64,000 bases of DNA, taken from Cyanobium sp. FGCU52. GTDB taxonomy: Bacteria; Cyanobacteriota; Cyanobacteriia; PCC-6307; Cyanobiaceae. Position numbers and translations under genes: made by a program. Where the stretch lies: assembly GCA_024958715.1 (NCBI GenBank), contig JANWUS010000021.1, positions 1 through 64,000 of the forward strand. Reading direction: 5' to 3'. The first letter of the stretch is position 1, and each line of letters opens with the position of its first letter. Under the pieces are notes generated by a model. The model saw nothing but the letters and a program-made list of their open reading frames with translations, was not told where the DNA came from and ran no database searches. Below, one piece after another: positions 23,178 to 42,472 of this stretch.

Positions 23178-24194
23178 ATGGCCGCATCATCCCGGAGCCG
23201 TTCCTTGTCTGCACTGACCCGCTGCCTGGAGGAGGAGGCCGCTGCCATCGCCGCCAGCGCCCAGCGCCTCGATCCGCACCAGGTGGAGGCGGCCCTGCAG
23301 CTGCTCGAGCGCTGCGCCGACGGGCGGGCGAAGCTGGTGATCACCGGCGTGGGCAAGAGCGGGATCGTGGCGCGCAAGATCGCCGCCACCTTCTCCTCGA
23401 TCGGCCTGATGGCGATCTATCTCAATCCCCTCGACGCCCTGCACGGCGATCTCGGGGTGGTGGCGCCCGACGACGTGACCCTGCTGCTCTCCAACAGCGG
23501 CGAGACCCAGGAGCTGCTCGAGATCCTGCCGCACCTGAAGCGCCGCGGCACCGGCCGCATCGCGCTGGTGGGACGGGTGGAATCGAGCCTGGCGCGCGGC
23601 TGCGACGTGGTGCTCGACGGCTCGGTGGACCGGGAGGTCTGCCCCCTCAACCTGGCGCCCACCGCCAGCACGGCCGTGGCCATGGCCATCGGCGACGCCC
23701 TGGCGGCCGTGTGGATGGAGCGGCGCGGCATCTCTCCCCAGGACTTCGCCCTCAACCACCCGGCCGGCTCGCTGGGCAAGCAGCTCACCCTCACCGCCGC
23801 CGACCTGATGGTGCCGGTGGCGCGGCTGGCGCCGCTGCGGGCCGGCACGCCGCTGCCGGAGGTGATCGCCCACCTCACCGCCGATGGGGTCGGCGCCTGC
23901 TGGGTGGCCCGTGAGGGTGCCGCGGATCGGCTGCACGGCCTGATCACCGACGGCGACCTGCGGCGGGCCCTCCAGACCCATGGGCCGGAGACCTGGAGCC
24001 GCCTCACCGCCGCCGACCTGATGACCGCCGATCCGATCACGATCGGGGAGGACACCCTGGCGATCGAGGCCCTCGCCCAGATGGAGCGCAACCGCCGCAA
24101 GGCGATCGGTGTCCTGCCGGTGGTGGCGGGCGAGCGGAGGATGCTCGGCCTGCTGCGCCTGCACGATCTGGTGCAGGCGGGTCTGACCACCTGA
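23178..24194 (+). CDS. kdsD: Arabinose-5-phosphate isomerase (KdsD/KpsF)
   Basis: KdsD converts ribulose-5-phosphate into arabinose-5-phosphate, the first step to KDO. The SIS domain shows ITGVGKSGIVARKIAATFSS (about 55-74), LLLSNSGETQELLEILPHLK and APTASTAVAMAIGDALA. Two CBS domains follow from about residue 212 (LMVPVARLAPLRAG and LMTADPITIGEDTLAI). At 338 residues the length fits the family. Other KDO genes in the window are kdsB at 26070 and kdsC-kdsA at 41029-42424. A GTG six bases upstream is an alternative start. Confidence 0.92.
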   Translation: MAASSRSRSLSALTRCLEEEAAAIAASAQRLDPHQVEAALQLLERCADGRAKLVITGVGKSGIVARKIAATFSSIGLMAIYLNPLDALHGDLGVVAPDDVTLLLSNSGETQELLEILPHLKRRGTGRIALVGRVESSLARGCDVVLDGSVDREVCPLNLAPTASTAVAMAIGDALAAVWMERRGISPQDFALNHPAGSLGKQLTLTAADLMVPVARLAPLRAGTPLPEVIAHLTADGVGACWVAREGAADRLHGLITDGDLRRALQTHGPETWSRLTAADLMTADPITIGEDTLAIEALAQMERNRRKAIGVLPVVAGERRMLGLLRLHDLVQAGLTT

Positions 24195-24207: not shown

Positions 24208-25326
24208 ATGGTGAGGATCGACGACAGGGTGGATCCTGCGGTCGCTGCGGCGGCCGACGCCGGGAAAGGCGCCAAGTCGCCTGCCGGGCGCAATGCCGCG
24301 ATCGATCTGCTGCGCGGCGGCAGCATGCTCTACATCGTGGGCTTCTGGCACCTGCTGGGTTATGTCGACGGCATCGATGGCTACAAGAACGCCGTCACCT
24401 ATCCGCTCACCATTGCCGTTCTTGGCCTGTTCACCCTGATGGCCGGTTGCCTGGCCGGCCGGCGGGAGGTTCGGGGGTTTTCTGATCTCCTCAAGTACTA
24501 CAGGGCCCGCGCGATACGCATCCTGCCGCCCTACGCCCTAGCCCTGGTGCTGTTCGTTCCCACCGGGCTGCTGCAGTGGCCGGATGTGGGCAGGGGCCTG
24601 TTGCTGCTGCCGGCATTCGATGGCCAGCCGCTGCGCACGCTCTGGTTCGTGAACGTGCTGGTGGTGGGCTACCTGCTGGCCCCCCTGCTGCTGCTCCTGC
24701 GCCACCGGCTGCTCGCCGCCGGGGTCGGCCGGGGGTGGGCGCTGGCCGTGGTGGCCGGCTGCAGCGTCGTCGCCCTGGCCCTGCTGGTGCGGCTCTGCCC
24801 CGGTCTGGATCCCCGCTTCACCCTTTACTTCCCGGCCTTCGCCACCGGACTTCTGCTGGCCAACCCCCTGCTCGACCCTCAGCGCGGGGCCCTCAGCCGC
24901 CTCCAGCGGGTGATCCTGACGGTTTTGGCGGTGGCTGCCGTGGCCTTCACCCTCGGCGTCGAGGGCCGTGATTTCGAAACCAGCCTGCGCTCACTGCCGA
25001 TGGCAACGATCCTGCCGGCCCTGATGGTGCTCGCCGCCACCCGCCGCTGGCACGGCCTGAACCTGCCCGGGTGGATGCAGGCCGTGAGCTACGCCAGCTA
25101 CTTCATGTACCTGTTCCATCGCCCGATCCTCAGGGTCGTGACGGACACGGCCGTGGGCCTGGGTGCGCCCCAGCCCTGGCCCCTGCTGCTGATCCTTCTC
25201 GCTCTGGGGATGCCCCTGGTGGTGGTAATCACCTTGTGGGGGCAGTGCCTCTACGACCAGAGCCTGAAGGCCTCATCGCGGGCGGCGAACCACTCGGCCG
25301 CCAGCACGCCGCCGCCGGTGCGGTAG
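24208..25326 (+). CDS. Acyltransferase family 3 membrane protein
   Basis: A membrane acyltransferase of 372 residues related to OafA-type O-acetylases. It opens the first span with NAAIDLLRGGSMLYIVGFWH, resembling the usual D-x-L-R-G start of this family, and has about ten spans up to residue 350; a short RARAIRILPPYALAL segment fits the conserved R-x10-H-like region. It probably adds acetyl or another acyl group to a surface sugar. It follows kdsD by 13 bases, and its last 76 bases overlap the convergent glycosyltransferase gene. Confidence 0.72.
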   Translation: MVRIDDRVDPAVAAAADAGKGAKSPAGRNAAIDLLRGGSMLYIVGFWHLLGYVDGIDGYKNAVTYPLTIAVLGLFTLMAGCLAGRREVRGFSDLLKYYRARAIRILPPYALALVLFVPTGLLQWPDVGRGLLLLPAFDGQPLRTLWFVNVLVVGYLLAPLLLLLRHRLLAAGVGRGWALAVVAGCSVVALALLVRLCPGLDPRFTLYFPAFATGLLLANPLLDPQRGALSRLQRVILTVLAVAAVAFTLGVEGRDFETSLRSLPMATILPALMVLAATRRWHGLNLPGWMQAVSYASYFMYLFHRPILRVVTDTAVGLGAPQPWPLLLILLALGMPLVVVITLWGQCLYDQSLKASSRAANHSAASTPPPVR

Positions 25327-25958
25327 TCGCGGAACCAGGGGCCGCCCAGGGTCCAGTGCACCAGGGCCGGCCCCCCCTCGGAGGCGGGCTCCGGCCGGGG
25401 AGGCTGCACGTCGATCAGATGGTTCCAGCGCTCGATCGGCAGGGCGCCGATCTCGTGGTCGCCGGCGAGCCATTCCATGCGGTGCAGCTGCAGGCCCGTG
25501 GCCGTGTTGACGTAGTCGGGGGTGAGGGCGGTGCAGCGGGCGCAGTTGAACAGCATCAGCGAGCTCCAGTTCTTCTTCTCGTAGCGGGTCTGGAGCGCCC
25601 CGAGAAACTTCACGTCCTCGTTGGGAACATGCTCGTGCTGCACGCACTGCAGGGCGTAGCGCTCATCCCGCAGGGCCCAGAGCTCGGCGATGTCGCCGCG
25701 GGCGAGCATGTCGCAGTCCATGAAGATGGCCCAGCCCTTGTACTCCATCAGGTAAGGCACCAGGAAGCGGCTGAACGAGAACTCGGTGCTCTGGCGAGGA
25801 TCCCGCTCGCGCCGGTAGGTGCCCTCGAGCTGGCGGGCCACGATCGGAGTGAGCGCCAGGGGCAGGGAGCTGTGCTGGTAGAGGCTGTCGATCAGCACGT
25901 TCACAGCCGCCCGCTCATGGGGGTCGTAGCCGATGAACACGGGAATGGGCAGGGCCAT
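25251..25958 (-). CDS. Family 8-like glycosyltransferase, copy A
   Basis: A 235-residue GT-A type transferase. It starts with IPVFIGYDPHERAAVNVLID, has a DxD metal site in GWAIFMDCDMLARGDIAELW, and ends with DVQP and LVHWTLGGPWFRDY. A very similar protein is encoded at 32984-33703 (same ALTPDYVNTATGL, KNWSSLML and WNHLxDVQP), so one is a duplicate of the other. The donor is unknown. It lies 111 bases downstream of kdsB on the same strand and seems to have its own promoter. Confidence 0.78.
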   Translation of the reverse strand: MALPIPVFIGYDPHERAAVNVLIDSLYQHSSLPLALTPIVARQLEGTYRRERDPRQSTEFSFSRFLVPYLMEYKGWAIFMDCDMLARGDIAELWALRDERYALQCVQHEHVPNEDVKFLGALQTRYEKKNWSSLMLFNCARCTALTPDYVNTATGLQLHRMEWLAGDHEIGALPIERWNHLIDVQPPRPEPASEGGPALVHWTLGGPWFRDYRTGGGVLAAEWFAARDEAFRLWS

Positions 25959-26069: not shown

Positions 26070-26843
26070 TCAGTCCGCCGCGGCCGCGGCGATCCGGCGG
26101 GCCTCCTCCAGCTGCTCGGCCGTATCCACCGACAGGGATTCCCCCTCCACCGCGAACGTGCCGATGCCGATGCCCGCCTCCAGCAGACGCAGCTGCTCCA
26201 GCTTCTCGATGTCCTCCAGGGGCGAGGCCGGCAGTTGGTTCCAGCGGGCCAGCACGTCGGCCCGGTAGCCGTAGATGCCCACATGACCCCAGTAGGGCGC
26301 ATGGGCGTGCCACTCGGCAGGATCCACACCGCGCACATGGGGGATCGCCGAGCGCGAGAAGTAGAGCGCCCTCCCATCGGCCGACACCAGGGTCTTGACC
26401 ACGTTGGGGTTGTGCACCTTGTCGGCGCCCATCCGATACACGGGCGTCAGCACCTCCGTGGCCGGCCCACGCCGCTCGAACTCCGCCGCCATCGCATCGA
26501 TCACCGCCGGATCGATGAACGGCTGGTCGCCCTGCACGTTGAGGATCACCGTCTCGTCGGCCGGGGCGCCGGCCAGCGCCACGATCGGCTCCACCACCGA
26601 GGCGATGCGCTCGCTGCCGGAGGCGCAGGCGGGGCTGGTGGCCAGGGCCTCGAAGCCCCAGTCCGCCGCGGCGGCGATCAGCTCGTCGCTGTCGGTGCAG
26701 AGCACCACCGCCGCAGGGCAGCCGGCCTCACGACAGCGCTCCAGCACCCGCCGCAGCATCGGCCGGCCACCGATGTCGGCCATCACCTTGCCCGGCAGGC
26801 GCGAAGACTCCAGCCGCGCCGGCACCGCCACGACGAACCGCAT
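26070..26843 (-). CDS. kdsB: 3-deoxy-manno-octulosonate cytidylyltransferase
   Basis: KdsB (257 residues) activates KDO with CTP to CMP-KDO. The nucleotide-binding loop is VVAVPARLESSRLPGKVMAD, with later marks VLCTDSDELI, SGSERIA, ILNVQGDQPFIDP and YFSRSAIPH. I start at MRFVVAV; an in-frame ATG five codons earlier is less likely. A TAGGCT box is 24 bases upstream of the start. It is unlinked from kdsA/kdsC, which lie 15 kb away. Confidence 0.93.
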   Translation of the reverse strand: MRFVVAVPARLESSRLPGKVMADIGGRPMLRRVLERCREAGCPAAVVLCTDSDELIAAAADWGFEALATSPACASGSERIASVVEPIVALAGAPADETVILNVQGDQPFIDPAVIDAMAAEFERRGPATEVLTPVYRMGADKVHNPNVVKTLVSADGRALYFSRSAIPHVRGVDPAEWHAHAPYWGHVGIYGYRADVLARWNQLPASPLEDIEKLEQLRLLEAGIGIGTFAVEGESLSVDTAEQLEEARRIAAAAAD

Positions 26844-26867
26844 GCTTCCTGCCGCCAATCTGGGCGG

Positions 26868-27417: not shown

Positions 27418-28287
27418 GTGGTGGTGACCGTGGCCTACGACAGCGGTGCCGTTCTGCCCGCCCTCGCCGCCGACCTGGCGCGGCAGTCGCGGCCACCCCG
27501 GGCCTGGCTGGTGGTGGACAACAGCCCGCTGAGCGCTCCGCTCCGCCTGGAGACCCTGGCGATCCCCCCTCTGGCGGTTCACCGCCTCGCCGGCGGCGAG
27601 GGGGATGGATTCGGCGCCGGCTGCAACCGCGCCCTCGATCGGCTCGAGGCCGAAGGCTGGCGGGGTTGGGTGTGGCTGCTCAACCCCGACACCGCCCTGC
27701 CCCGCGGCGAAGAGCTGGCCCAACTGCTGGAGGCGCTGGCGGGGCTGCCGGACACCGCCCTGGTGGGCACGGCCGTGGACGACGGCCATGGCGGCACCGA
27801 GGCCAGCGGCGGCTGGATCGACCCCGGCCTGGCCTTCCGCCGCCGCTGCCTCGGGGCCGCCCACCGGCCGGGGCGCCAGCCCCTGGCGCTGGACTGGCTG
27901 AGCGGCTGCAACCTGGTGCTTCGGCCCAGCGCCCACCAGCCGCCGGCCCGCTTCGATTCCAGCTTCCCCCTCTACTACGAGGACATGGACCTCTGCCTGC
28001 GCCTGGGGCGCCGGGGGGCGCCGGTGCTGTGGCTGCCGACGCCCACGGTGCTCCACCGGCGCGGCACCGGCAGCGCCGCCCCCGGTCCGCGCCGGGTCCG
28101 GCTCTCCACGCTCGGGTACCTGCGGTTCCTGCGGCGCCATTGCCCGCCGTGGGTGTTCGCGTTGCGCACGGCGCGGCTGCTGCTGCTCAGCCTGCTGCGC
28201 CTGCCGCTGCGGCCCCGCCGCAGCCTGGCCGCCCTGGCGGCGGGTGCCACCGTGCTCACCGAAGCCCTGCGGGGCCAGCCCGCCTGA
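27418..28287 (+). CDS. Family 2 glycosyltransferase (rhamnosyltransferase-like)
   Basis: A GT-A enzyme of about 289 residues. The opening VVTVAYDSGAVLPALAADLA, WLVVDNSPL, the nucleotide-metal site WVWLLNPDTALPRG and FPLYYEDMDLCLRLGRRG followed by VLHRRGTGS place it with the WbbL-like rhamnosyltransferases. Only GTG codons (27418, 27421, 27424) are available at the N-terminus and no ribosome binding site is obvious, so the start is approximate. The next glycosyltransferase begins seven bases after its stop. Confidence 0.8.
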   Translation: MVVTVAYDSGAVLPALAADLARQSRPPRAWLVVDNSPLSAPLRLETLAIPPLAVHRLAGGEGDGFGAGCNRALDRLEAEGWRGWVWLLNPDTALPRGEELAQLLEALAGLPDTALVGTAVDDGHGGTEASGGWIDPGLAFRRRCLGAAHRPGRQPLALDWLSGCNLVLRPSAHQPPARFDSSFPLYYEDMDLCLRLGRRGAPVLWLPTPTVLHRRGTGSAAPGPRRVRLSTLGYLRFLRRHCPPWVFALRTARLLLLSLLRLPLRPRRSLAALAAGATVLTEALRGQPA

Positions 28288-28294
28288 GGTCGCG

Positions 28295-29386
28295 ATGTCC
28301 GGTTCCACTCCCCTGGCCCTGTTCAACGGCAGCTACCTCAGCCGCCGCCCCACCGGCATCGGGGTGGTGGCCCGCGATCTGGTCTCCGCCCTCGATCCCG
28401 CCCTGGTGCCGCTGCTCGATCCCCTCGGCCTCGGCCGGCCCGGCAGCCTGCCGATCCCCGACACCCTCTCGCCCGACCACGGTCGCCGCGGCCACTGGAA
28501 TCGGCTGGTCTGGACCCAGAACGAACTGCCGAAGCTGCTGCGCCGCCACGGCGTCCCCCTGCTGCTCTCGCCCCTGCCCGAGGCGCCGCTGCTGAAGGGG
28601 GTGCGCTCGGTGGTGCTGGCCCACGACCTGCTGCCGCTGCGCTATCCCCAGCTCACGCCCCTGCTGGCCTACCACCTGGCCTACGTGCCGCTGGTGCTGC
28701 ACCGGGCCGTAAGGGTGCTCTGCAACTCCGAGGCCACCGCGCGGGAAGTGCATGGCCGGCTCGGCGTTCCAGCCCGGCGCCTGGAGCCGATCCGGCTGGG
28801 CTTCGATCCGGGCCTTCTGCGGCCCCTGGGCCTGGAGCGGCAGCCCTTCTTCCTGGTGCTGGGCCGCCACGACCCCCACAAGAACCTGGAGCGGGCGCTG
28901 CGGGCCTTTGCGGCCGTGCCCGATCCGCAGGGAGACCTGCGCCTCAAGCTGGTGGGCCCGCACGACCGCCGCACCACCCCCCGCCTGCAGCGCCTCGCCG
29001 CCGAGCTGGGCATCGCCGGCCGCTGCGACTGGCTGCCTTGGGTGAGCGACGCCGAACGCCTGGAGCTGCTCAACCGCTGCCGCGGCCTGCTGCTGGTGAG
29101 CCTGTGGGAGGGCTTCGGCCTGCCGGCGCTGGAGGCGATGGCCTGCGGCGCCCCGGTGATCGCCGCCCGCGCCGGCGCCCTGCCCGAGGTGGTGGGCGAG
29201 GCGGGGCTGCTGGTGGATCCGCGCGATCCGGCCGCCATCGCCGCCGCTCTCTCCGACCTCGGCCGCGATGGGGCCCTGGCCCGTCAGCTGGCCGCCGCGG
29301 GACCGGCCCGGGCCGCCGGCTTCCGCTGGCAGGCCACCGCCGCCCAGGTCACGGCGGTGCTGGAGGCCTGCGTCAGAGGGCGCTGA
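28295..29386 (+). CDS. Family 4 glycosyltransferase (mannosyltransferase-like)
   Basis: A 363-residue GT4 enzyme. It has LSRRPTGIGVVARDLVSAL at the start, VRSVVLAHDLLPLRYP and RVLCNSEATAREV in the middle, LVLGRHDPHKNLERALRAF at the domain junction and WEGFGLPALEAMACGAPVIA at the donor site. This layout matches mannosyl- and rhamnosyltransferases of O-antigen clusters. It is the second gene of a two-gene operon and its end overlaps the convergent sulfotransferase gene by 14 bases. Confidence 0.82.
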   Translation: MSGSTPLALFNGSYLSRRPTGIGVVARDLVSALDPALVPLLDPLGLGRPGSLPIPDTLSPDHGRRGHWNRLVWTQNELPKLLRRHGVPLLLSPLPEAPLLKGVRSVVLAHDLLPLRYPQLTPLLAYHLAYVPLVLHRAVRVLCNSEATAREVHGRLGVPARRLEPIRLGFDPGLLRPLGLERQPFFLVLGRHDPHKNLERALRAFAAVPDPQGDLRLKLVGPHDRRTTPRLQRLAAELGIAGRCDWLPWVSDAERLELLNRCRGLLLVSLWEGFGLPALEAMACGAPVIAARAGALPEVVGEAGLLVDPRDPAAIAAALSDLGRDGALARQLAAAGPARAAGFRWQATAAQVTAVLEACVRGR

Positions 29387-30065
29387 GTCGGCTGTGCAGC
29401 TCCGGCCCCAGGCATCCACGCCGCAGCGAATGATCGAGGAAGCGGTAATCGGCGCGGTAGATGCGGCGGGCCCTGGCTTCCAGCTCCGGGTTGTAGAAGC
29501 AGGCGTAGGGGGGACAGTGACCGCTCTCGATGAGTGCCCTGAGGTCCTCGCGAGCGAGCAGGGCAGGGTCCGCCGCCGGGGGTTCGGCCTCCGCCCGGGC
29601 CGCCGCCGGCCGGTTGCCGCGAACCCGGAACGGCATCGCCACCTGGGTGCCGCAGAGCCCGTTCACGTGCTCGCGCAGCGGTTCGAGGTCGTCGGCATCG
29701 AACACCCGATCGAACCGCCACCAGCGGTAGCGACGGCGCTGGGGATGGAAGTGGACCTTGTCCACACAGCGGAACCCGTGGCGGTCGAGTTCGTCGACGA
29801 AATCGGCGAAGGTCTCGAGCCGGGCATCGGGACACAGTCGCAGCGAGGCCTCCCGGTAGCGGCTGTGCTCCACATACTTGTTGAGGTAGGCGCTCACCAG
29901 GCGCCGCAGCGGGTTGCGGAACACGATCAGCCGCTGCCGGTCCACGGGCCGGGTCCGGCTCTGCTCCACCTCCCAGGCGAAATCAGCGACACTGCGGCAG
30001 GAGGCCTTGGGCGAGGCGCAGATCACCAGGCGGTCGATGCGACTGACCAGAGCCCTCGGCGCCAT
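29373..30065 (-). CDS. Carbohydrate sulfotransferase-like protein
   Basis: A 230-residue protein resembling the sulfotransferase 2 family, which moves sulfate from PAPS to a sugar. The 5'-phosphosulfate loop fits RLVICASPKASCRSVADFAW and the 3'-phosphate site fits IVFRNPLRRLVSAYLNKY (R-N-P-x2-R-x2-S-x-Y). The start is fixed by GAGGAG a few bases before ATG; an earlier ATG at 30092 lacks this. Its place among glycosyltransferase genes suggests that the surface glycan is sulfated. Confidence 0.75.
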   Translation of the reverse strand: MAPRALVSRIDRLVICASPKASCRSVADFAWEVEQSRTRPVDRQRLIVFRNPLRRLVSAYLNKYVEHSRYREASLRLCPDARLETFADFVDELDRHGFRCVDKVHFHPQRRRYRWWRFDRVFDADDLEPLREHVNGLCGTQVAMPFRVRGNRPAAARAEAEPPAADPALLAREDLRALIESGHCPPYACFYNPELEARARRIYRADYRFLDHSLRRGCLGPELHSRLSAL

Positions 30066-30157
30066 GGATCTCCTCGAGGTGTGCTCGAACATTCATCGAG
30101 TTGTGGCTGAGATTACGCACCGGAACCGTTCCGGCGCCGAGCGGATCCCGGTCGCTC

Positions 30158-31018
30158 TCAGTCGCAGCCGATCACACCGGGGTCGGTCCGGGCTTCGGTA
30201 CGCACGGAGGCGTGGAGGCGTTGATCGACACCCCTGGGCAGGGCCACCCTCACCACCGTTCCGGTTCTGCGCCAGCGCAGGGCCGCCAGCAGCATCAGGC
30301 TCTCCCCCACCACCACCGTTCCCCGCCAGGACGGCAGCACCTGTTCGGGGGGGATGCGCAGGCAGCGGTCCCCCGCGGCCAGCGGCAGGGTCCAGGAGCG
30401 CTTGGCCTCCACCGGATGAGGGATCAGCCACCAGGGCCGCGGCAGGGCCGCGGCCTCCTGCTGCAGCCGCTCGACCCCGGGGGAATCGATGATCAGGGTC
30501 CCCCGCGGCGGCGGCAGCGGGACCTCCCGAGCGGCTTCCGGAGCCTCTGCGGGACGATCAAACAGGGGTCCCAGGTCGCGGCAGCGGAAGCGCGCGCACC
30601 AGGGGGCCCGCCAGTGCGGGGCGTCCGAGAACAGCCAGTAGTCGATCCCCTCCGGGAACGCCCGGGGATCGACCGCCCGGGGCGCATCGCGGTACTGATC
30701 CAGGCCATCGTCGAGCAGCACCAGCCGGCGGGAGCGAGCGGCGATCCGGCGCAGGGCCCGACCGGCGTTGCGGAGATGGGCCAGCCGCAGCTCCCGCACC
30801 GCTCCCGCCAGCGCCAGCGGCACCAGCAGCGCCAGGGTGAGGGGATGCACCGGCAGTCGCAGGGGCCAGAACCGGCGATCCTCCGGGCCCAGTCGCATGC
30901 GCCGCGGCTCCCAGATCAGCAGCTCCAGCCCGCCATCGCCGGCCTCCGCCGGCCGGCGCCGCAGCCGCCGCGCCGCCTCCAGATGCAGGGCGTTGCTCGC
31001 CAGCGTCAGACGGATCAC
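30158..31018 (-). CDS. Putative glycosyltransferase with sialyltransferase-like motifs
   Basis: A 286-residue soluble protein that I do not recognise by overall sequence. It has a D-D-G triplet in LVLLDDGLDQYRDAP (residues 103-105) and an H-P pair in WWLIPHPVEAKRSW (201-202). An acidic D/E-D/E-G motif and an H-P motif about 100 residues apart are the hallmarks of bacterial sialyltransferases of families GT38 and GT52, which use CMP-sugars. No CMP-sialate gene is present, but the CMP-KDO pathway is, so CMP-KDO is a possible donor. The GTG start overlaps the preceding stop by four bases, placing it last in a four-gene coupled operon. Confidence 0.6.
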   Translation of the reverse strand: MIRLTLASNALHLEAARRLRRRPAEAGDGGLELLIWEPRRMRLGPEDRRFWPLRLPVHPLTLALLVPLALAGAVRELRLAHLRNAGRALRRIAARSRRLVLLDDGLDQYRDAPRAVDPRAFPEGIDYWLFSDAPHWRAPWCARFRCRDLGPLFDRPAEAPEAAREVPLPPPRGTLIIDSPGVERLQQEAAALPRPWWLIPHPVEAKRSWTLPLAAGDRCLRIPPEQVLPSWRGTVVVGESLMLLAALRWRRTGTVVRVALPRGVDQRLHASVRTEARTDPGVIGCD

Positions 31019-32007
31019 CGCTGGCCCAGCGAGCGCCGCATCCCCTCCAGGCGTCCCCGGCCCAGGCCCAGCACCAGCACCGGCAGGTGCAGCAGCTGGC
31101 GGCCCGTGCGCCACCAGAGGCGGTGCCACCAGCGCACTGCCCAGCGCCCCTGCCGCGAGGGGGGCACGAGCTTGGGGGGCAGCTCCGAGAGGAACACCTC
31201 CGGGATGGCCAGGAAGCAGCTCCAGAAGGCCATGCGTCGGGCATGGTCGATCTCGTCGGCCGTCTCGGCGGAGGGGCGCGGCACGGAAGCGCCGACCACC
31301 CGCCAGACTCCCGGCGCCGTCTGCTCGTAGACGCTGGCGGGGGTGCGCGCGCCCCAGGGGTTGTGGGCCGCGAGCAGGCGGTTGCCCAGCCGCGAGGAGC
31401 GCATCGTCGCCAGGCCCAGGCTGCGGCGCAGGGCCTGGCCTTCGCCGGCCCGCGGCTGGCCCATGCGCTCCTCGTTGGAGTGCTCGATCACCCCGATCGC
31501 CCCCTCCGGGATCGGGCCGAGCGTCCAGCCCTGCTGCACCTCCAGCCGGGCGCGCAGATCCTTGTCCTCGAAGCCCCAGCCGCGCAGGAACTCGTTGAAG
31601 CCGCCCACGGCGGCGAAGGTGTCCCGCTCCATCAGGAACTGGCCGTAGCGGCCCTCGCCGCCCTGGCCCACCCACACCGGCCCCGCCGCCAGCAGCGCCC
31701 CCGGATCCAGCGCCTCGGTGGGCCAGCAGTCGGCGTCCATCCGCATCAGCCAAAGGCCGCTCGCCTGGCCCAGGGCGAAGTTGTAGGCGCGGGAGGGATT
31801 CCAGCGGGGCTCCCCCTCCACCCGCAGCAGCCGCAGGCGCGGATCGGGCGGCAACTCCTCGCGGCGCAGGGGCTCCCGGCTGCTCCAGTCCACGATCAGG
31901 TGCTCGTCGTGGTGGGGCCAGGCGGCCACCCGTGGCGCGGTGGCCAGCAGGTGCTCGCGACGGTTCATGCAGACGGTGACGACGCTCAGACGCGGCCGCT
32001 CGCTCAT
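31015..32007 (-). CDS. Family 2/7 glycosyltransferase, copy 1
   Basis: A 330-residue GT-A enzyme starting SVVTVCMNRREHLLATAPR, with the metal site LMRMDADCWPTEAL and a C-terminal galactosyltransferase-type segment GGFNEFLRGWGFEDKDLRAR, the layout of chondroitin-synthase-like transferases. A paralog is directly upstream. Both end in a basic, Trp-rich segment (RWWHRLWWRTGRQLLHLPV) that may dock on the membrane. It starts with ATG overlapping the upstream stop (ATGA). Confidence 0.82.
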   Translation of the reverse strand: MSERPRLSVVTVCMNRREHLLATAPRVAAWPHHDEHLIVDWSSREPLRREELPPDPRLRLLRVEGEPRWNPSRAYNFALGQASGLWLMRMDADCWPTEALDPGALLAAGPVWVGQGGEGRYGQFLMERDTFAAVGGFNEFLRGWGFEDKDLRARLEVQQGWTLGPIPEGAIGVIEHSNEERMGQPRAGEGQALRRSLGLATMRSSRLGNRLLAAHNPWGARTPASVYEQTAPGVWRVVGASVPRPSAETADEIDHARRMAFWSCFLAIPEVFLSELPPKLVPPSRQGRWAVRWWHRLWWRTGRQLLHLPVLVLGLGRGRLEGMRRSLGQR

Positions 32008-32993
32008 GGCGCCCGCCTCCGCCCGGCCGTGAGCAGGGCCTGAGCCCCCGCCAGGGCCTGCACCGGCAGCAGCACCAGGCGGCGGCCGGTGTGCCACCAG
32101 AGCCGGTGCCACCAGCGCACCGGCCAGCGCCCTCCCCGCTCCGGTGGGAACAGGCTGTACGGCATCGCTTCCAGTCCCACCTCGGGAATCACCAGGAACG
32201 CCCCCCAGAAGGTCATGCGCCGCACGTGCTCCAGTTCCGCCGCCACCTCGGCCGGCGGCCGCGGCAGGGACTCCGGCTCCAGCCGCCAAAGATCCGGCGC
32301 CGTCTCCCGGTAGCGCGATCGGGGGCTGTCCGCGGACCACGGGCAGTGGGCCGCCACCAGCCGGTTGGCCATCCGGGTGGCCCGCATCGCCGCCTGACCG
32401 CGGGCCGCCTCCAGGCCGCTGCGTCGGGCGGCCCTCCCCTGCCCGGCGCGCTCCTCATCGCCGTGCTCGATCACCGCCAGCCAGTCGGGGGGGATCACGG
32501 CCGGGTCGTGGCCGGTGCGCAGCCGCAGCCGGGCCTGCAGGTCCTTGTCGTCGAAGCCGTAGCCCACCATCAGCTCGTCGAAGCCCCCCACCGCCGCCAC
32601 CAGCGCCGCATCCAGGAGCAGCTGGCCCTTGCGGCCCTCCGGGCCGCTGCCGAACGCGCAGAGCAGGCCGCTGCCGGGCAGCCGCAGCGCCGGATCGTCC
32701 GGGTCGAAGCGCTCCGTCGGCCAGGCGTCGGCATCGAGCTTCAGCACTCGCTTGCCCCGGGCCCGCGCCAGGGCGAAGTTGTAGGCACGGCAGAGGTTCC
32801 AGCGGCCCTCCCCCTCCACCCGCAGCAGCCGCAGGCGCGGATCAGGCGGCAGATCCTCGCGGAGCAGCGGCTCGCGGCTGCTCCAGTCGACGATCAGGTG
32901 CTCGTGATGGTGGGGCCAGGCGGCCAGGCGGGGCGCGGTGGCGAGCAGGTGCTCGCGCCGGTTCATGCAGACGGTGACGACACTCAGTCCCAC
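32004..32993 (-). CDS. Family 2/7 glycosyltransferase, copy 2
   Basis: A 329-residue paralog of the next gene, sharing LSVVTVCMNRREHLLATAPR, VDWSSREPL, LKLDADAWPTERFDP as metal site, GGFDELMVGYGFDDKDLQAR and the closing RWWHRLWWHTGRRLVLLPV. The GTG start is taken within the last codons of the upstream family-8-like gene (ten-base overlap); a start 33 bases upstream is possible but adds non-family residues. Two adjacent copies could add two similar residues in the same repeat unit. Confidence 0.82.
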   Translation of the reverse strand: MGLSVVTVCMNRREHLLATAPRLAAWPHHHEHLIVDWSSREPLLREDLPPDPRLRLLRVEGEGRWNLCRAYNFALARARGKRVLKLDADAWPTERFDPDDPALRLPGSGLLCAFGSGPEGRKGQLLLDAALVAAVGGFDELMVGYGFDDKDLQARLRLRTGHDPAVIPPDWLAVIEHGDEERAGQGRAARRSGLEAARGQAAMRATRMANRLVAAHCPWSADSPRSRYRETAPDLWRLEPESLPRPPAEVAAELEHVRRMTFWGAFLVIPEVGLEAMPYSLFPPERGGRWPVRWWHRLWWHTGRRLVLLPVQALAGAQALLTAGRRRAP

Positions 32994-33703
32994 AGACCCA
33001 TGGCATCGTCGCGTGCGCGGTACCACTCCGCCGCCAGCACGCCGCCCATGGCGAACTGCTCCCGGAACCAGGGTCCGCCCAGGGTCCAGTGCAGCAGGGT
33101 CGGTCCCCCCTGCTCAGCGCTGGCGTCCGGAGCGGGCTGCACGTCCACCAGATGGTTCCAGCGGTCGGGCAGGGCGCCGATCTCGTGGTCGCCCGCCAGC
33201 CAGTGGAAGCGATGCAGCTCCAGGCCGGTGGCCGTGTTCACGTAGTCGGGGGTAAGGGCGGTGCAGCGCTCGCAGTTCAGCAGCATCAGCGAGCTCCAGT
33301 TCTTCTTGGGATAGGCGCTCTGCACCTCGCCGAGGAACTTCACGGTCTCGCCCGGCACGTGCTCGTGCTGGACGCATTGCACGGCATAGGCCGCATCGCG
33401 CGCCTGCCACAGCTCGGCGATATCGCCGCGGCAGAGCATGTCGCAGTCCATGAAGATCGCCCAGCCGCCGTAGCTGCAGAGGTGAGGCACCAGGAAGCGG
33501 GTGAAGGAGAAGGCCGTGCTCTGCTTCGGATCCCGTTCCCTGCGGTACAGACCCTGGTTCTCCAGCTGGGGCGTGACCAGGGGCGTGATCGCCAGCGGCA
33601 GGCTGCTGTGCTGGTACAGGCTGTCGATCAGCACATTGGTGGCCGCCCGCTCGCGGGGGTCGTAGCCGATGAAGATCCGGATCGGTGCGGCGGAAGGTTC
33701 CAT
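32984..33703 (-). CDS. Family 8-like glycosyltransferase, copy B
   Basis: A 239-residue protein almost parallel to the one at 25251-25958: IRIFIGYDPRERAATNVLID, GWAIFMDCDMLCRGDIAELW, ALTPDYVNTATGLELHRF, WNHLVDVQP and LLHWTLGGPWFREQ. It leads a chain of four overlapping genes (this one, two GT2 copies and the sialyltransferase-like gene), which suggests one glycan branch built in order. It is divergent from pcrA, with 113 bases between the starts. Confidence 0.8.
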   Translation of the reverse strand: MEPSAAPIRIFIGYDPRERAATNVLIDSLYQHSSLPLAITPLVTPQLENQGLYRRERDPKQSTAFSFTRFLVPHLCSYGGWAIFMDCDMLCRGDIAELWQARDAAYAVQCVQHEHVPGETVKFLGEVQSAYPKKNWSSLMLLNCERCTALTPDYVNTATGLELHRFHWLAGDHEIGALPDRWNHLVDVQPAPDASAEQGGPTLLHWTLGGPWFREQFAMGGVLAAEWYRARDDAMGLWD

Positions 33704-33816
33704 CGGCGTCAGGCGCTGCGGGCAATTTACGCGGGCCCCGTGCGGCCCCCGGCACCGTCGCCGCACCGGAGCCATTGTGTCAAAGGCAAGGAACAGCACC
33801 GTTACAGTGCGAGGGC

Positions 33817-36225
33817 ATGAGCTTCCTGGCCGGCCTCAACGACGCCCAGCGCCGGGCGGTGGATCATCGCGACGGGCCCCTGCTCGTGGTGGCGGGCGCC
33901 GGCAGCGGCAAGACCCGCGCCCTCACCCATCGCATCGGCCACCTGATCGGCCACCACGGCGTCGATCCGAACGAGCTGCTGGCGGTCACCTTCACCAACA
34001 AGGCGGCCCGCGAGATGAAGGAGCGGCTGGAGCTGCTGCTGGCCCAGCGGCTGGCCCAGAGCCAGTTCGGCCAGCCCCTGGCCACCCTGTCCCCGCACGA
34101 GCAGAAGCAGCTGCGCAGCCGCATCTACCGCGAGGTGATCAAGGACCTCTGGATCGGCACCTTCCACGCCCTGTTCGCCCGCCTGCTGCGCTTCGACATC
34201 GACAAGCTGCGCGACCCGGAGGGCCTCAGCTGGACCCGCCAGTTCTCGATCTACGACGAGAGCGACGCCCAGACGCTGGTGAAGGAGATCGTGACCCAGG
34301 AGCTGGGCCTCGATCCCAAGCGCTTCGAGCCCAAAAAGGTGCGCTGGGCGATCAGCAACGCCAAGAACCAGGGCTGGCTGCCGGAGGAGATGGAGGCCAA
34401 GGCCGAGGGCCAGCGCGGACGCAAGGAGGCCGAGGCCTACCGGCTCTACCGCCGCGCCCTGGCGGCCAACAACGCCCTCGACTTCGACGACCTGCTGCTG
34501 CTGCCGGTGCAGCTGCTGCGCCAGAACGAGCAGATCCGCAGCTACTGGCACCGCCGCTTCCGCCACGTGCTGGTGGATGAGTATCAGGACACCAACCGCA
34601 CCCAGTACGACCTGATCAAGCTGCTGGTGGCCGACGGCCGCGACCCGGCCGAGTTCGCCGACTGGCAGGGCCGCTCGGTGTTCGTGGTCGGCGACGCCGA
34701 CCAGAGCATCTACAGCTTCCGGGCCGCCGACTTCCGCATCCTGATGGGCTTCCAGGACGACTTCGGCGACGGCGCGACCGACGAGGCCACCCGCACGATG
34801 GTGAAGCTGGAGGAGAACTACCGCTCCACCGCCACGATCCTGGCGGCGGCCAATGCGCTGATCGCCCACAACAGCGAGCGCATCGACAAGATCCTGCGCC
34901 CCACCCGCGGCGAAGGCGAGCCGATCACCCTCACCCGCTGCGACGACGAGATCGCCGAGGCCGAGGCGGTGGTGCACCGCATGCGCATGCTCGACGCGGC
35001 CCACCCCGACCTGCGCTGGGGCGACATGGCGGTGCTCTACCGCACCAACGCCCAGAGCCGGGCGATGGAGGAATCGCTGGTGCGCTGGGGCATTCCCTAC
35101 CTCGTGGTGGGCGGCCTGCGCTTCTACGACCGGCGGGAGATCAAGGACATCCTGGCCTACCTGCGCCTGCTGGTGAATCCGGCCGACACCGTGAGCCTGC
35201 TGCGGGTGCTGAACGTGCCGCGGCGCGGCATCGGCAAGACCACGATCGAAAGGCTCACCGATGCCGCGGGCCAGCTGGGCCTGCCGCTGTGGGAGGTGGT
35301 GAGCGATGCCGAGGCGGTGCGCTCCCTGGGGGGTCGCTCGGCCAAGGGGCTGCTGCAGTTCTGTGAACTGATCAACGATCTGCAGCGTCGCGCCCAGGAC
35401 GCCCCACCCTCGGAGCTGGTGCAGCGGGTGATGGAGCAGAGCGGCTACCTGGCGGAGCTGATCGCCGATGGCACCGACGAGTCGGAGGACCGGCGCCGCA
35501 ACCTCAACGAACTGGTCAACGCCGCCCTGCAGTACCAGGAGGAGAACGAGGAGGGATCGCTGGAGGGCTTCCTCGCTTCCGCCGCCCTGGCCAGCGACGC
35601 CGATTCCAAGGACACGGAGTCCGACCGGGTGACGCTGATGACGCTCCATGCCAGCAAGGGGCTGGAGTTCCCGGTGGTGTTCCTGGTGGGGCTGGAGCAG
35701 GGCCTGTTCCCGAGCTACCGCTCCCTCGACGATCCGGCCGCCCTGGAGGAGGAGCGCCGCCTCTGCTACGTGGGCGTGACCCGGGCCAAGGAGCGCCTGT
35801 TCCTCTCCCACGCCAGCGAGCGGCGGCTGTGGGGGGGCATGCGCGAACCGGCGGTGCCCTCGGTGTTTCTGTCGGAGCTGCCCGCTGATCTGCTGCAGGG
35901 CGACGTGCCCGGAAGCGGCGGCGCCGCGATCCGCCGGGAGCAGCGCCTCGAGCGGCTCACCCGCGTCGACCGGGCGGAGAGCCGGCGGGTGCAGAGCGGT
36001 GGTGAGGGCGGCGTCCCCGCCAATGCGGTGCGCCGCCGTGCCGCCGCGCGCCCCTGGGCCGTGGGCGATCGGCTGCGCCACGCCGCCTTCGGCGAGGGCC
36101 ACGTCACCCACCTGTTCGGCAGCGGCGAGAAGGTGTCGATCGCGGTGAAGTTCGAGGGCATGGGGCCCAAGATCCTCGATCCGCGGCTAGCGCCGATCGA
36201 ACCGATCCCGGGCGGCAGCGCTTGA
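33817..36225 (+). CDS. pcrA: UvrD/PcrA-type DNA helicase
   Basis: A superfamily 1A helicase of 802 residues that unwinds DNA in repair and replication restart. Walker A is AGAGSGKT at 26-33, the DExx box VDEYQDTN near 253-260, followed by VVGDADQSIYSFRAAD, the LEENYRST motif, LMTLHASKGLEFPVV and VGVTRAKERLF near 650. The C-terminal 60 residues form a small basic domain ending HAAFGEGHVTHLFGSGEKVS, seen in PcrA. It is a housekeeping gene embedded in the glycan block. The stop overlaps the next gene by four bases. Confidence 0.95.
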   Translation: MSFLAGLNDAQRRAVDHRDGPLLVVAGAGSGKTRALTHRIGHLIGHHGVDPNELLAVTFTNKAAREMKERLELLLAQRLAQSQFGQPLATLSPHEQKQLRSRIYREVIKDLWIGTFHALFARLLRFDIDKLRDPEGLSWTRQFSIYDESDAQTLVKEIVTQELGLDPKRFEPKKVRWAISNAKNQGWLPEEMEAKAEGQRGRKEAEAYRLYRRALAANNALDFDDLLLLPVQLLRQNEQIRSYWHRRFRHVLVDEYQDTNRTQYDLIKLLVADGRDPAEFADWQGRSVFVVGDADQSIYSFRAADFRILMGFQDDFGDGATDEATRTMVKLEENYRSTATILAAANALIAHNSERIDKILRPTRGEGEPITLTRCDDEIAEAEAVVHRMRMLDAAHPDLRWGDMAVLYRTNAQSRAMEESLVRWGIPYLVVGGLRFYDRREIKDILAYLRLLVNPADTVSLLRVLNVPRRGIGKTTIERLTDAAGQLGLPLWEVVSDAEAVRSLGGRSAKGLLQFCELINDLQRRAQDAPPSELVQRVMEQSGYLAELIADGTDESEDRRRNLNELVNAALQYQEENEEGSLEGFLASAALASDADSKDTESDRVTLMTLHASKGLEFPVVFLVGLEQGLFPSYRSLDDPAALEEERRLCYVGVTRAKERLFLSHASERRLWGGMREPAVPSVFLSELPADLLQGDVPGSGGAAIRREQRLERLTRVDRAESRRVQSGGEGGVPANAVRRRAAARPWAVGDRLRHAAFGEGHVTHLFGSGEKVSIAVKFEGMGPKILDPRLAPIEPIPGGSA

Positions 36226-37343
36226 ACGGTCCTCGGCAGGCTCCGGCGGTGCTGGTGCTCACCGGCGGCCTGATCCACCTGGTGCACCAGCTGGCGGTGG
36301 TGCGCGAGCTTCCCGAGCTGACCGCGGCACCGAGCGATGGGGAGCCGGCCCTGCCGCCACCGATCGGCGTGCTGATCACCGGGGTGCTGCGACGCGATCC
36401 GGTGGCCCTGACCGGGCTGCACGGGGCGATCGAGCGCTGGCTCGACCTGCTGCGCCTGCGGGATCCCGAGGCCTTCGGCGGCCTGCACCTGCTGCCCGAC
36501 GAGAGCGCCGCCGCGGCCGAACGCTGGTCGATCGTCTGCCTCAACAACCAGTGGCTGCAGGGCCAGCGCAGCGTGATCGAGCGGCTCGACCTGCGCGACT
36601 GGGTGGTCTGCGGGGATGGCCTGGGGATCTACTACCGCTGCGCCCGTGAGCTGCGGGCCCTGCTGCCGAGCTTGCTGAACCGGCCGATCCCGGAACCCGG
36701 GCGGCGCGTGCGCTACGTGCTGAGCGGCCGCCAACCGCTCTGGCACCGCCCCCCCGTTCCCGCGCAGCTGCCGCCGGAACGGCGCCGGCTGGAACTGTTC
36801 GAGACCCTGGTGGCCAGCCAGGAGGTGGGCGCCGCGCCGGCCGTGCAGGCCTGCCTGGCGGCGGCCGAGGGTGCGCCGCCGGGGCGGCCCCTGTGGCTGT
36901 GCTCGGTGCCGAACCTGGCTCACCAGTTCCCCGACGGCCGCATCCCGATGGCGGTGCTCGAACCCTGGCGGCGGCAGCTGGAACGGCGCCACGGCTTCGA
37001 TCCGGCCTGCGACCGCCTGGTGCTGATCGACCATCCCAAGGCGCCGCCCCAGGGCAGCTTCGGCCCCCGCCACGAACCCTGGCTGGCCGGCCCCCTGCGC
37101 ATGCCGGTGGCGCTGGAGGTGCTGGTGGAGCTGCTGATCCGCAGCCGGAGCGGCCGACCGGTGGTGGTGGCCGGTCTCACCTCGGCGCTCTATGGCGTCC
37201 GCCGGCTCACCGGCGCCGAGGTGGTGTGGCTGGATCTGGCCCCGCTCTGGCGGGGCAATCCCCTCTACCGCCGCAGGCCCCTGGAGTTCCTGCACCGCTG
37301 GCTGCGGGTGGCGCGGATGGCGTGGATCACCCGCTCCGGTTAG
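36222..37343 (+). CDS. Polysialyltransferase-like protein
   Basis: A 373-residue protein with motifs like those of bacterial polysialyltransferases: WVVCGDGLGIYYRCAREL (G-D-G at 131-133) and VLIDHPKAPPQGSF (H-P at 271-272), then GRPVVVAGLTSALYGVRRL in the position of the Ser/Thr-rich third motif. The first acidic residue of the D/E-D/E-G motif is glycine here. The likely role is transfer of a CMP-linked acidic sugar; KDO is the only such sugar whose genes I see. The TTG start overlaps the pcrA stop as TTGA. The gene converges on the polymerase-like genes with a three-base gap. Confidence 0.6.
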   Translation: MNGPRQAPAVLVLTGGLIHLVHQLAVVRELPELTAAPSDGEPALPPPIGVLITGVLRRDPVALTGLHGAIERWLDLLRLRDPEAFGGLHLLPDESAAAAERWSIVCLNNQWLQGQRSVIERLDLRDWVVCGDGLGIYYRCARELRALLPSLLNRPIPEPGRRVRYVLSGRQPLWHRPPVPAQLPPERRRLELFETLVASQEVGAAPAVQACLAAAEGAPPGRPLWLCSVPNLAHQFPDGRIPMAVLEPWRRQLERRHGFDPACDRLVLIDHPKAPPQGSFGPRHEPWLAGPLRMPVALEVLVELLIRSRSGRPVVVAGLTSALYGVRRLTGAEVVWLDLAPLWRGNPLYRRRPLEFLHRWLRVARMAWITRSG

Positions 37344-38585: not shown

Positions 38586-38661
38586 CCTGCGGGGGAGGCT
38601 GGGGGTGAGCAGGCTGGGAGTGGTGTCGGATGGGAGGCCGGGGCGCGCCGGATCGGCAGGG

Positions 38662-39902: not shown

Positions 39903-41036
39903 TCAGGACGTCGGATCCGGAGGGTCCCGCAGCAGGTGTCGTAAGGCAGCCCCCTCGCGCACGCGCTCGAAGCCCCAGTAGGGATCGAGCAGCTCACGCA
40001 CGGCGGCGGCGGAGTATCCCTGGGGCAGGGCCAGGGCCTGCTGCAGGGCGGCGCTGAGCCGCTGCCGTTCCGACCATTCGGCGGCCTCCTCCTGCGCCTT
40101 GTCGCCCGCCAGGGCCGAGAGGTCCTGCTCCGCCTGCACCGCGATCCAGTGCGGCCGCAGGCCGAGGGCGACGCCATAGCCGAGGTGGGTGCCGAAGGCA
40201 TTGCTGGCCAGGCCGTCGCTCAGTTCCACCAGGGTGCGCATGGCGTCGAGGAACCAGGGATTGGAGCGATGGCCGTTGCAGGCCACGATCCACTCCGGCG
40301 GCAGCTCCGTGAGCTCCGGATCCTTCCAGTGCCGCAGCCAGATCACGCTGCGGTAGCCGCCCGCCCGTGCGGCCTCCGCCACCGCCTCGATGCAGGCGCG
40401 CGCGTCCATGCGCCGCTCCACCTGGTCCCAGCTGTGGGCCAGCACCACCAGCAGGGTCTGCCCCAGCCGCTCCCGCAGCCGTTGGATCTCCGCCGCCTCG
40501 AGCACGGGCCGCGCATAGGCGATCCAGGGGCCGATCGGCACCGCCGGCAGGCCGAAGCGTTCCTCCAGCCAGGCGGCCCGCCGTTCGCCCATGCACAGAT
40601 AGCCCCGGGTCCAGGGGCGGGGGCTCTCGAAGGTGGCGGTGCGGCTCACCTTGAGCCCATGCTCCAGCAGCCACGGCAGCGGCGGGCCGATCAGGGGCAG
40701 GCCGGCGTGGCGCTTGAGCTGCACATCGTGGCCGTAGTGGTGGGAGGAGTTCTCCAGCTCGCGATGCGCCGGGCTGAAGAACGGCTTGCGACCGGCCGAG
40801 GGATGGAAGGCGCCCCGGTCCCAGAGGTCGGCGCACACCTGCGGCGCCAGGGGCCGGGCGGCGAAGGCCTGGTGCACCAGGCCCCTGTAGGCCGCCAGCC
40901 CCTGCCACTGGTCGCTGTCGGCCCGGGCCGCCCAGGTGAGGGGCGTCAGCGGCAGCGGGCCCAGACGACCCTCCCGCAGGGCCCGGTGCAGGCGGATCCG
41001 CAGGCGGTCGCGAAACGTGTGGAGGGGATCAGTCAT
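39903..41036 (-). CDS. GT-B-like protein of unknown specificity
   Basis: A 377-residue soluble protein I cannot place in a named family. The C-terminal half reads LLVVLAHSWDQVERRMDARA, VIWLRHWKDPEL and SDGLASNAFGTHLGYGVALG. The last block resembles the donor-site loop of GT-B glycosyltransferases of capsule clusters. A Tyr/His-rich segment NSSHHYGHDVQLKRHAG lies near residue 98. Its ATG is inside the end of kdsC (eight-base overlap), so it is translated with KDO genes; transfer of KDO or a KDO-linked sugar is a reasonable guess only. Confidence 0.55.
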   Translation of the reverse strand: MTDPLHTFRDRLRIRLHRALREGRLGPLPLTPLTWAARADSDQWQGLAAYRGLVHQAFAARPLAPQVCADLWDRGAFHPSAGRKPFFSPAHRELENSSHHYGHDVQLKRHAGLPLIGPPLPWLLEHGLKVSRTATFESPRPWTRGYLCMGERRAAWLEERFGLPAVPIGPWIAYARPVLEAAEIQRLRERLGQTLLVVLAHSWDQVERRMDARACIEAVAEAARAGGYRSVIWLRHWKDPELTELPPEWIVACNGHRSNPWFLDAMRTLVELSDGLASNAFGTHLGYGVALGLRPHWIAVQAEQDLSALAGDKAQEEAAEWSERQRLSAALQQALALPQGYSAAAVRELLDPYWGFERVREGAALRHLLRDPPDPTS

Positions 41037-41607
41037 TGCGATCCCGCCAGCCGGCCTCCGCAAGGTCGCTCCAGGCGCCACGGGCCCGCAGGATCTCCTC
41101 GGCCAGGCGCCGCACCGCCCCGTCGCCGCCGTCGCGATCGAGCACCCAGTCGGCCCGATGGCGCAGCGGCGCCACCGCATCGGCGGTGCACAGCAGCAGC
41201 CCGATCGCCGGACGCACCGCCAGATCGTTGAGGTCGTCGCCCACGAAGGCACTCTCGGATCGCTGCACCCCCAGCAGCTCCTGCAGATCGCGCAGGGCGG
41301 CGGGCTTGTCCTTCACGCCGGTGAGCACATGGCGGATGCCCAGATAGCGGGCCCGCTGTTCGGTGGCCCCGCTCTTGCCGCCGCTCAGCCAGGCCACCTC
41401 CAGTCCGGCCTGCTGGAGGAGGCGGATGCCGAGGCCGTCGCGCACGTCGAAGCGCTTCAGCACCTCTCCGGATTCGGTGGTCCAGAGGCCGCCGTCGGTG
41501 AGCACCCCGTCCACGTCGAGCACCAGCAGGCGCAGCCCCCCCAGCTGGGCTCGGCAGCGGGCCCGGCCGCGGCGATGGCGCCAGCGTCGGTGGAGCGTTC
41601 GCAGCAC
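41029..41607 (-). CDS. kdsC: KDO-8-phosphate phosphatase
   Basis: KdsC (192 residues) removes phosphate from KDO-8-phosphate. It is a HAD phosphatase with the nucleophile motif LLVLDVDGVLTDGGLW, the family-specific FDVRDGLGIRLLQQAG, WLSGGKSGATEQRARYLG, GVKDKPAAL and FVGDDLNDLAV. The N-terminal 25 residues are basic and not conserved. The GTG start lies seven bases after kdsA. Confidence 0.92.
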   Translation of the reverse strand: MLRTLHRRWRHRRGRARCRAQLGGLRLLVLDVDGVLTDGGLWTTESGEVLKRFDVRDGLGIRLLQQAGLEVAWLSGGKSGATEQRARYLGIRHVLTGVKDKPAALRDLQELLGVQRSESAFVGDDLNDLAVRPAIGLLLCTADAVAPLRHRADWVLDRDGGDGAVRRLAEEILRARGAWSDLAEAGWRDRND

Positions 41608-41614
41608 GGGATCT

Positions 41615-42472
<858 letters not shown>

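Follow-up and report, generated by a model that had tools for sequence, protein, structure and literature searches.

On balance, the gene at 30158..31018 in Cyanobium sp. FGCU52, a presumably freshwater picocyanobacterium, probably encodes an inverting GT-B CMP-Kdo transferase of the sialyltransferase type, which would add alpha-Kdo to the surface polysaccharide of its own gene cluster. The best reading of this candidate is that it founds a new sequence family working like the sialyltransferases of GT38, GT52 and GT80. In the proposed pathway, the products of kdsD, kdsA, kdsC and kdsB would provide CMP-beta-Kdo, the candidate would transfer the sugar from this donor with inversion to give alpha-Kdo, and the acceptor would be the surface polysaccharide built by the cluster. 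We infer this donor, the inverting stereochemistry and the acceptor; inversion, and hence the formation of alpha-Kdo from CMP-beta-Kdo, is predicted from the DDG/HP design of the protein. The window, i.e., the whole 64,000-nucleotide stretch of DNA that was analyzed, carries the following features.

23235..24194, + strand: kdsD/kpsF, arabinose-5-phosphate isomerase (TIGR00393, 244.7 bits against a cut-off of 203.7)
25251-25958, - strand: GT8-like paralogue of the gene at 32984-33799
26070..26858, - strand: kdsB, CMP-Kdo synthetase (TIGR00466, 195.1 bits against a cut-off of 155.2)
28244..29386, + strand: GT4-type glycosyltransferase
29373..30092, - strand: sulfotransferase-like protein (PF03567), variable in the cluster
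30158..31018, - strand: candidate transferase, 286 aa plus stop, GTG start, with DDG 103-105, HP 201-202, K206, E225 and S240
31015..31983, - strand: glycosyltransferase upstream of the candidate (Glycos_transf_2 plus Glyco_transf_7C)
32004..33026, - strand: related glycosyltransferase (Glycos_transf_2)
32984..33799, - strand: GT8-like glycosyltransferase (PF01501), near kdsB in most neighborhoods examined
36222..37343, + strand: ST2, second sialyltransferase-like protein, with GDG, HPK and TS motifs and a predicted GT-B fold
37347-39894, - strand: two adjacent hydrophobic proteins without Pfam or NCBIfam match
39903..41252, - strand: HPx, unclassified, beside kdsC-kdsA (ORF limits from a mechanical list), a rival candidate for the Kdo transferase
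41029..41607, - strand: kdsC, Kdo-8-phosphate phosphatase family (TIGR01670, 146.3 bits against a cut-off of 106.95)
41615..42424, - strand: kdsA, Kdo-8-phosphate synthase (TIGR01362, 405.5 bits against a cut-off of 314)

The kdsD, kdsA, kdsC and kdsB genes in the window each score above the curated NCBIfam cut-off, which bears out the statement of the preliminary description that CMP-KDO genes are present. The start codon of the candidate and the stop codon of the upstream glycosyltransferase gene overlap as GTGA. The DDG and HP motifs, which the same description had placed about 100 residues apart, lie at the positions given there, with a spacing of 98 residues from D103-D104-G105 to H201-P202. 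In shuffles of the candidate protein, a [DE][DE]G...HP pair 80-150 residues apart was found in 2.0% of cases, and one at a spacing of 97-99 in 0.06%. Taken from a single sequence, the pair would be just slightly out of the ordinary and would prove nothing; it is taken to be real because it is conserved across the family.

A search of 300 genomes of the same taxonomic family as FGCU52 identified 16 carriers of the candidate in five genera, FGCU52 included, among them Synechococcus sp. 1G10, Cyanobium sp. FGCU6 and an uncultured cyanobacterium. The two closest relatives of the candidate are 83% and 84% identical to it. A seventeenth match (G032, E 8e-4, one stop) was rejected, the family motif not being in frame. 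A profile search of 386 genomes across the phylum revealed no further family members; one match over 41 positions (E 0.01) was rejected, as its ORF resembles a sugar-kinase-type protein. In an alignment of 15 members with 37-83% identity to the query, 48 positions are invariant, including D103, D104, G105, H201, P202, K206, G238, E239 and S240, and all 15 have an acidic residue, E or D, at position 225. The combination of D/E-D/E-G and HP that defines the GT38/GT52/GT80 type is thus invariant throughout the aligned family. When the neighborhoods of the 15 other carriers were scanned for conserved [DEG][DE]G...HP pairs, the candidate family and ST2 were found and no third family. The same scan of 20 kdsB neighborhoods from non-carriers found a YDEG...HPHP protein alone. 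This conserved protein, with YDEG and HPHPK, lies near kdsB at L069-L072 and L105-L106 (genomes G250, G268 and G226) and has no detected relation to the candidate.

The candidate has no relevant match among the Pfam, NCBIfam and PHROG models. PF07388 (GT38) matches none of the 15 members at E up to 10, PF07922 (GT52) matches none of the family members, and neither model has a match in the FGCU52 genome. No GT80 match was obtained for the candidate or the other members with the whole of Pfam-A scanned, and PF05159 (KpsC, GT107) and PF04413 (WaaA, GT30) likewise match none of the 15. Over all members, Pfam returned three unrelated models, which are chance matches with E above 0.05. Since no member has a profile match, the family lies by profile outside GT38, GT52, GT107 and GT30. 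PF07922 and PF07388 also have weak matches in other genomes of the phylum, but these were too marginal to serve as a source of reference profiles. Sequence searches of the PDB, with the single sequence and with the profile, gave only a papain-inhibitor match (E 0.49), which was taken as chance, and searches of plasmids, phages and viral contigs gave nothing but one match to a Mesorhizobium plasmid (E 0.8, 30% of the query). Kdo transferases of the retaining kind depend on a QxxxD nucleophile (PMC12887879); QxxxD is absent from the query and none is conserved in the family, so the candidate is not of the retaining Kdo type.

The AlphaFold2 model of the candidate (pLDDT 89.6, pTM 0.83) comprises two Rossmann domains, and the predicted fold is clearly GT-B. 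Against 350,542 PDB chains, Foldseek ranked first the GT52 sialyltransferase 2yk7 with CMP-3F-Neu5Ac (E 4.4e-6), followed by UDP-bound PseG at rank 2, the GT38 structure 5wc6 at rank 7 and WaaA (2xci_B) at rank 43. VIA-align 2 ranked first the GT38 polysialyltransferase 5wc6 among 999 chains (Z 12.5, 260 aligned, rmsd 4.9), with plant UDP-glycosyltransferases within one Z unit of it (12.3 and 12.0); no GT80 chain is among the 50 VIA matches listed for the candidate, which cannot be read as absence. Because sialyltransferases and UDP-glycosyltransferases tie in VIA, the fold alone leaves the nucleotide open. The modeled fold appears sialyltransferase-like by a narrow margin, and the motifs carry the remainder of the case.

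In the model, the fifth strand (98-102) leads into DDG and the strand at 196-199 into HP, and S240 stands immediately before the helix that follows the strand at 234-237. Judged by order and spacing along the secondary structure, the DDG loop and HP would be compatible with cleft-facing strand ends of the two Rossmann domains. In MhPST (5wc6), the base is E153, in the loop after strand 5; the CMP phosphate is bound by S339 and by H291 of HP, and the ribose by E323 (PMC5517516). By analogy with MhPST and PmST1, we infer the roles of the corresponding residues in the candidate: H201 and S240, both in the C-terminal domain, would serve to bind the phosphate of CMP, and E225 its ribose. The spacing from E225 to S240 is 15 residues, against 16 in MhPST. 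The likeness to GT38/GT52 CMP-sugar transferases that had been proposed for this protein is supported by the fold and the conserved site elements and does not extend to a profile match with GT38, GT52 or GT80. The preliminary description had held that no profile match, together with a fold placing the two motifs far apart, would speak against it; a profile match is indeed missing, and on the second point the strand order of the model is favorable.

The D/E-D/E-G and HP motifs are those of GT52 (PMC2169525), and the Neisseria LOS sialyltransferase NST (2yk7), a GT52 enzyme and the best Foldseek match, is GT-B like the candidate; however, the two are 13% identical, PF07922 does not match the candidate, and NST uses CMP-Neu5Ac whereas the donor of the candidate is probably CMP-Kdo. 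The candidate resembles the GT38 enzyme MhPST in having the base loop after strand 5 and HP, the ribose-binding acid and the phosphate-binding Ser in the same order, but the two share 12% identity, PF07388 does not match, and the candidate, at 286 aa, is shorter than the 381 aa of the structure. The K after HP, invariant in the candidate family, stands five residues past the H there and two in MhPST. GT80 PmST1 has both motifs and the proposed chemistry in common with the candidate, although the motifs of GT80 are spaced further apart (PMC2169525) and the candidate is without Pfam match. In PmST1, the residues that correspond to D104 and H201 lie 8-14 A from each other (PMC5517516). Among enzymes acting on Kdo, WaaA (GT30) and KdoT are inverting GT-B CMP-Kdo transferases, as proposed for the candidate; the WaaA profile fails to match it, and KdoT, unlike the candidate, depends on an SRRT motif, with no one residue acting as catalytic base (PMC12856342). 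The retaining beta-Kdo transferases GT99, GT107 and GT140 have an HP motif and use CMP-Kdo, the donor proposed here, but they carry QxxxD, which the candidate does not, and its predicted product is alpha-Kdo formed by inversion. A parallel in idea is the plant GT29 protein RCKT1, a sialyltransferase-like enzyme proposed to be an inverting CMP-Kdo transferase in an organism that has Kdo but little or no sialic acid (PMC11288761); it has a GT-A-type fold, in contrast to the candidate, and an unrelated sequence.

The candidate is closely associated with kdsB. In the 300 genomes sampled from the family of FGCU52, kdsB scores above cut-off in 119, comprising 16/16 carriers and 103/284 non-carriers (Fisher 2e-7, shared descent ignored). 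All 14 carriers with a long enough contig have kdsB 2.6-10.0 kb from the candidate on the same strand, and in one more carrier (G203) part of a kdsB gene lies at the contig edge, 3 kb from the candidate. In G051 and G084 (L051, L052, L054 and L055), the candidate has the kdsA-kdsC-HPx block on its opposite side compared with the other carriers; the linkage between the candidate and kdsB outlasts this rearrangement.

WaaA and KpsC are scarce in the carriers, as would suit a replacement. PF04413 (WaaA) scores above cut-off in one of the 16 and PF05159 (KpsC) in four, and both are missing from 12, including FGCU52; G262 has a sub-threshold PF04413 match, but this genome has KpsC. The control was a set of 73 kdsB genomes that lack the candidate and are at least 95% complete: WaaA is above cut-off in 18 of them, KpsC in 33 and neither in 31. 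The excess of genomes with neither among the carriers (12/16 versus 31/73; one-sided Fisher 0.018, shared descent ignored) is modest, and altogether 43 of the 89 kdsB genomes checked lack both. The 31 near-complete kdsB genomes without WaaA, KpsC and the candidate (G062, G115, G037, G023, G075, G226 and others; loci L067-L106) indicate that the group must contain further Kdo transferases. A one-for-one replacement of WaaA or KpsC by the candidate is weakened by the same 31 of 73 non-carriers.

ST2 had been overlooked in the preliminary description. Each of the 14 other carriers whose sequence extends far enough has ST2 in its neighborhood, and the 20 kdsB neighborhoods of non-carriers all lack it. 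It has no Pfam match and no PDB sequence match, and its model (pLDDT 85.2) gave nothing in Foldseek at E below 0.001; the GDG, HPK and TS motifs are likewise positioned after strands. In VIA, 5wc6 ranked first for ST2 (Z 15.6), three Z units over the best non-sialyltransferase enzyme, a UDP/TDP enzyme at 12.6, and GT80 and related sialyltransferases reached up to 13.3. HPx has the conserved stretches HHYGHD, EHG and GTHLGY and occurs also in six of the 20 kdsB neighborhoods without the candidate. In profile-profile comparisons, neither ST2 nor HPx gave a significant match to the candidate; the best local match between the candidate and ST2, not significant overall, is the DDG/GDG loop. For the Kdo step, ST2 is an equal or better candidate, and the Kdo transferase may be the candidate, ST2 or both.

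Alternative roles of the candidate were weighed against this background. It might use some common nucleotide sugar, such as a UDP- or GDP-sugar, with ST2 or HPx as the Kdo transferase, which we regard as rather unlikely. The tie with plant UDP-glycosyltransferases in VIA and UDP-bound PseG as the second Foldseek match are consistent with such a donor, ST2 has the stronger sialyltransferase match together with the same cluster linkage, and HPx adjoins kdsC-kdsA and is found in some kdsB genomes that lack the candidate. On the other hand, DDG, HP, E/D225 and S240 match the CMP-binding and base set of GT38 in order and spacing and are kept family-wide, the top Foldseek match is a CMP-sugar enzyme, and two CMP-Kdo transferases in one cluster are possible. 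Transfer of a nonulosonic acid (pseudaminic, legionaminic or sialic acid) from a CMP-nonulosonate supplied by genes at another locus would also suit the sialyltransferase-like fold and motifs. The earlier statement that CMP-sialate genes are absent is correct for the window and fails for the genome: FGCU52 is one of six carriers with NeuB, and at about 127-136 kb on its contig C12 (L108) a NeuB with SAF domain, a CTP_transf_3 cytidylyltransferase and a GNAT-domain protein are clustered, with NeuB and the cytidylyltransferase about 7 kb apart. However, a NeuB family gene is absent in the other ten carriers at 97-99% completeness (one of these, G194, with 6% contamination), among them the genomes of the two closest relatives, and a CMP-nonulosonate donor is therefore unlikely in those ten. 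The candidate gene, moreover, lies beside kdsB wherever this could be checked, and we consider a nonulosonic acid transferase improbable.

Membership of a known Kdo transferase family, with a sequence too diverged for the profiles, is less probable still. WaaA (GT30), KpsC (GT107), WbbB (GT99) and KrkA (GT140) all use CMP-Kdo, the HP motif is common to beta-Kdo transferases (PMC5517516), and WaaA does occur among the Foldseek matches; but PF04413 and PF05159 match no member, sialyltransferases outrank WaaA in Foldseek, and a conserved QxxxD is absent, GT99 and GT140 being judged by this motif only. That the motif pair arose by chance, in a protein that lost or never had transferase activity, is scarcely credible: the loosely spaced pair does occur in 2% of shuffles, but its invariance in 15 members, the conserved gene cluster and the confident GT-B model argue against this. 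The earlier proposal of a KDO transferase of a new kind is favored by the linkage to kdsB, by the lack of NeuB in 10/16 carriers and by the lack of both WaaA and KpsC in 12/16; the activity is predicted.

According to published accounts, the LPS of most cyanobacterial species contains no Kdo, and WaaA is missing from cyanobacteria (PMC4515613, PMC3087551). A Kdo transferase with sialyltransferase chemistry would, if true, fill part of the gap in Kdo attachment in picocyanobacteria. Plant GT29 would then be joined by a second example of a sialyltransferase design that serves Kdo, and the synthesis of alpha-Kdo glycosides would gain an inverting enzyme as a tool. A bolder and more doubtful possibility is that two sialyltransferase-type GT-B families without detectable mutual sequence similarity, the candidate and ST2, both transfer Kdo with inversion; they would then be the first bacterial alpha-Kdo transferases of the sialyltransferase type, building a Kdo-containing surface polysaccharide in picocyanobacteria that mostly lack WaaA and KpsC.

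Among the remaining genes of the cluster, the GT4-type gene is present in all carrier neighborhoods but one, in which the candidate lies 1.6 kb from the contig end. The two hydrophobic proteins at 37347-39894 are perhaps polysaccharide polymerases. Meanwhile, many of the kdsB genomes examined have a relative of the GT8-like glycosyltransferases at a distance of up to about 1-3 kb from kdsB, and this recurrence suggests that the two GT8-like paralogues share a Kdo-linked function.
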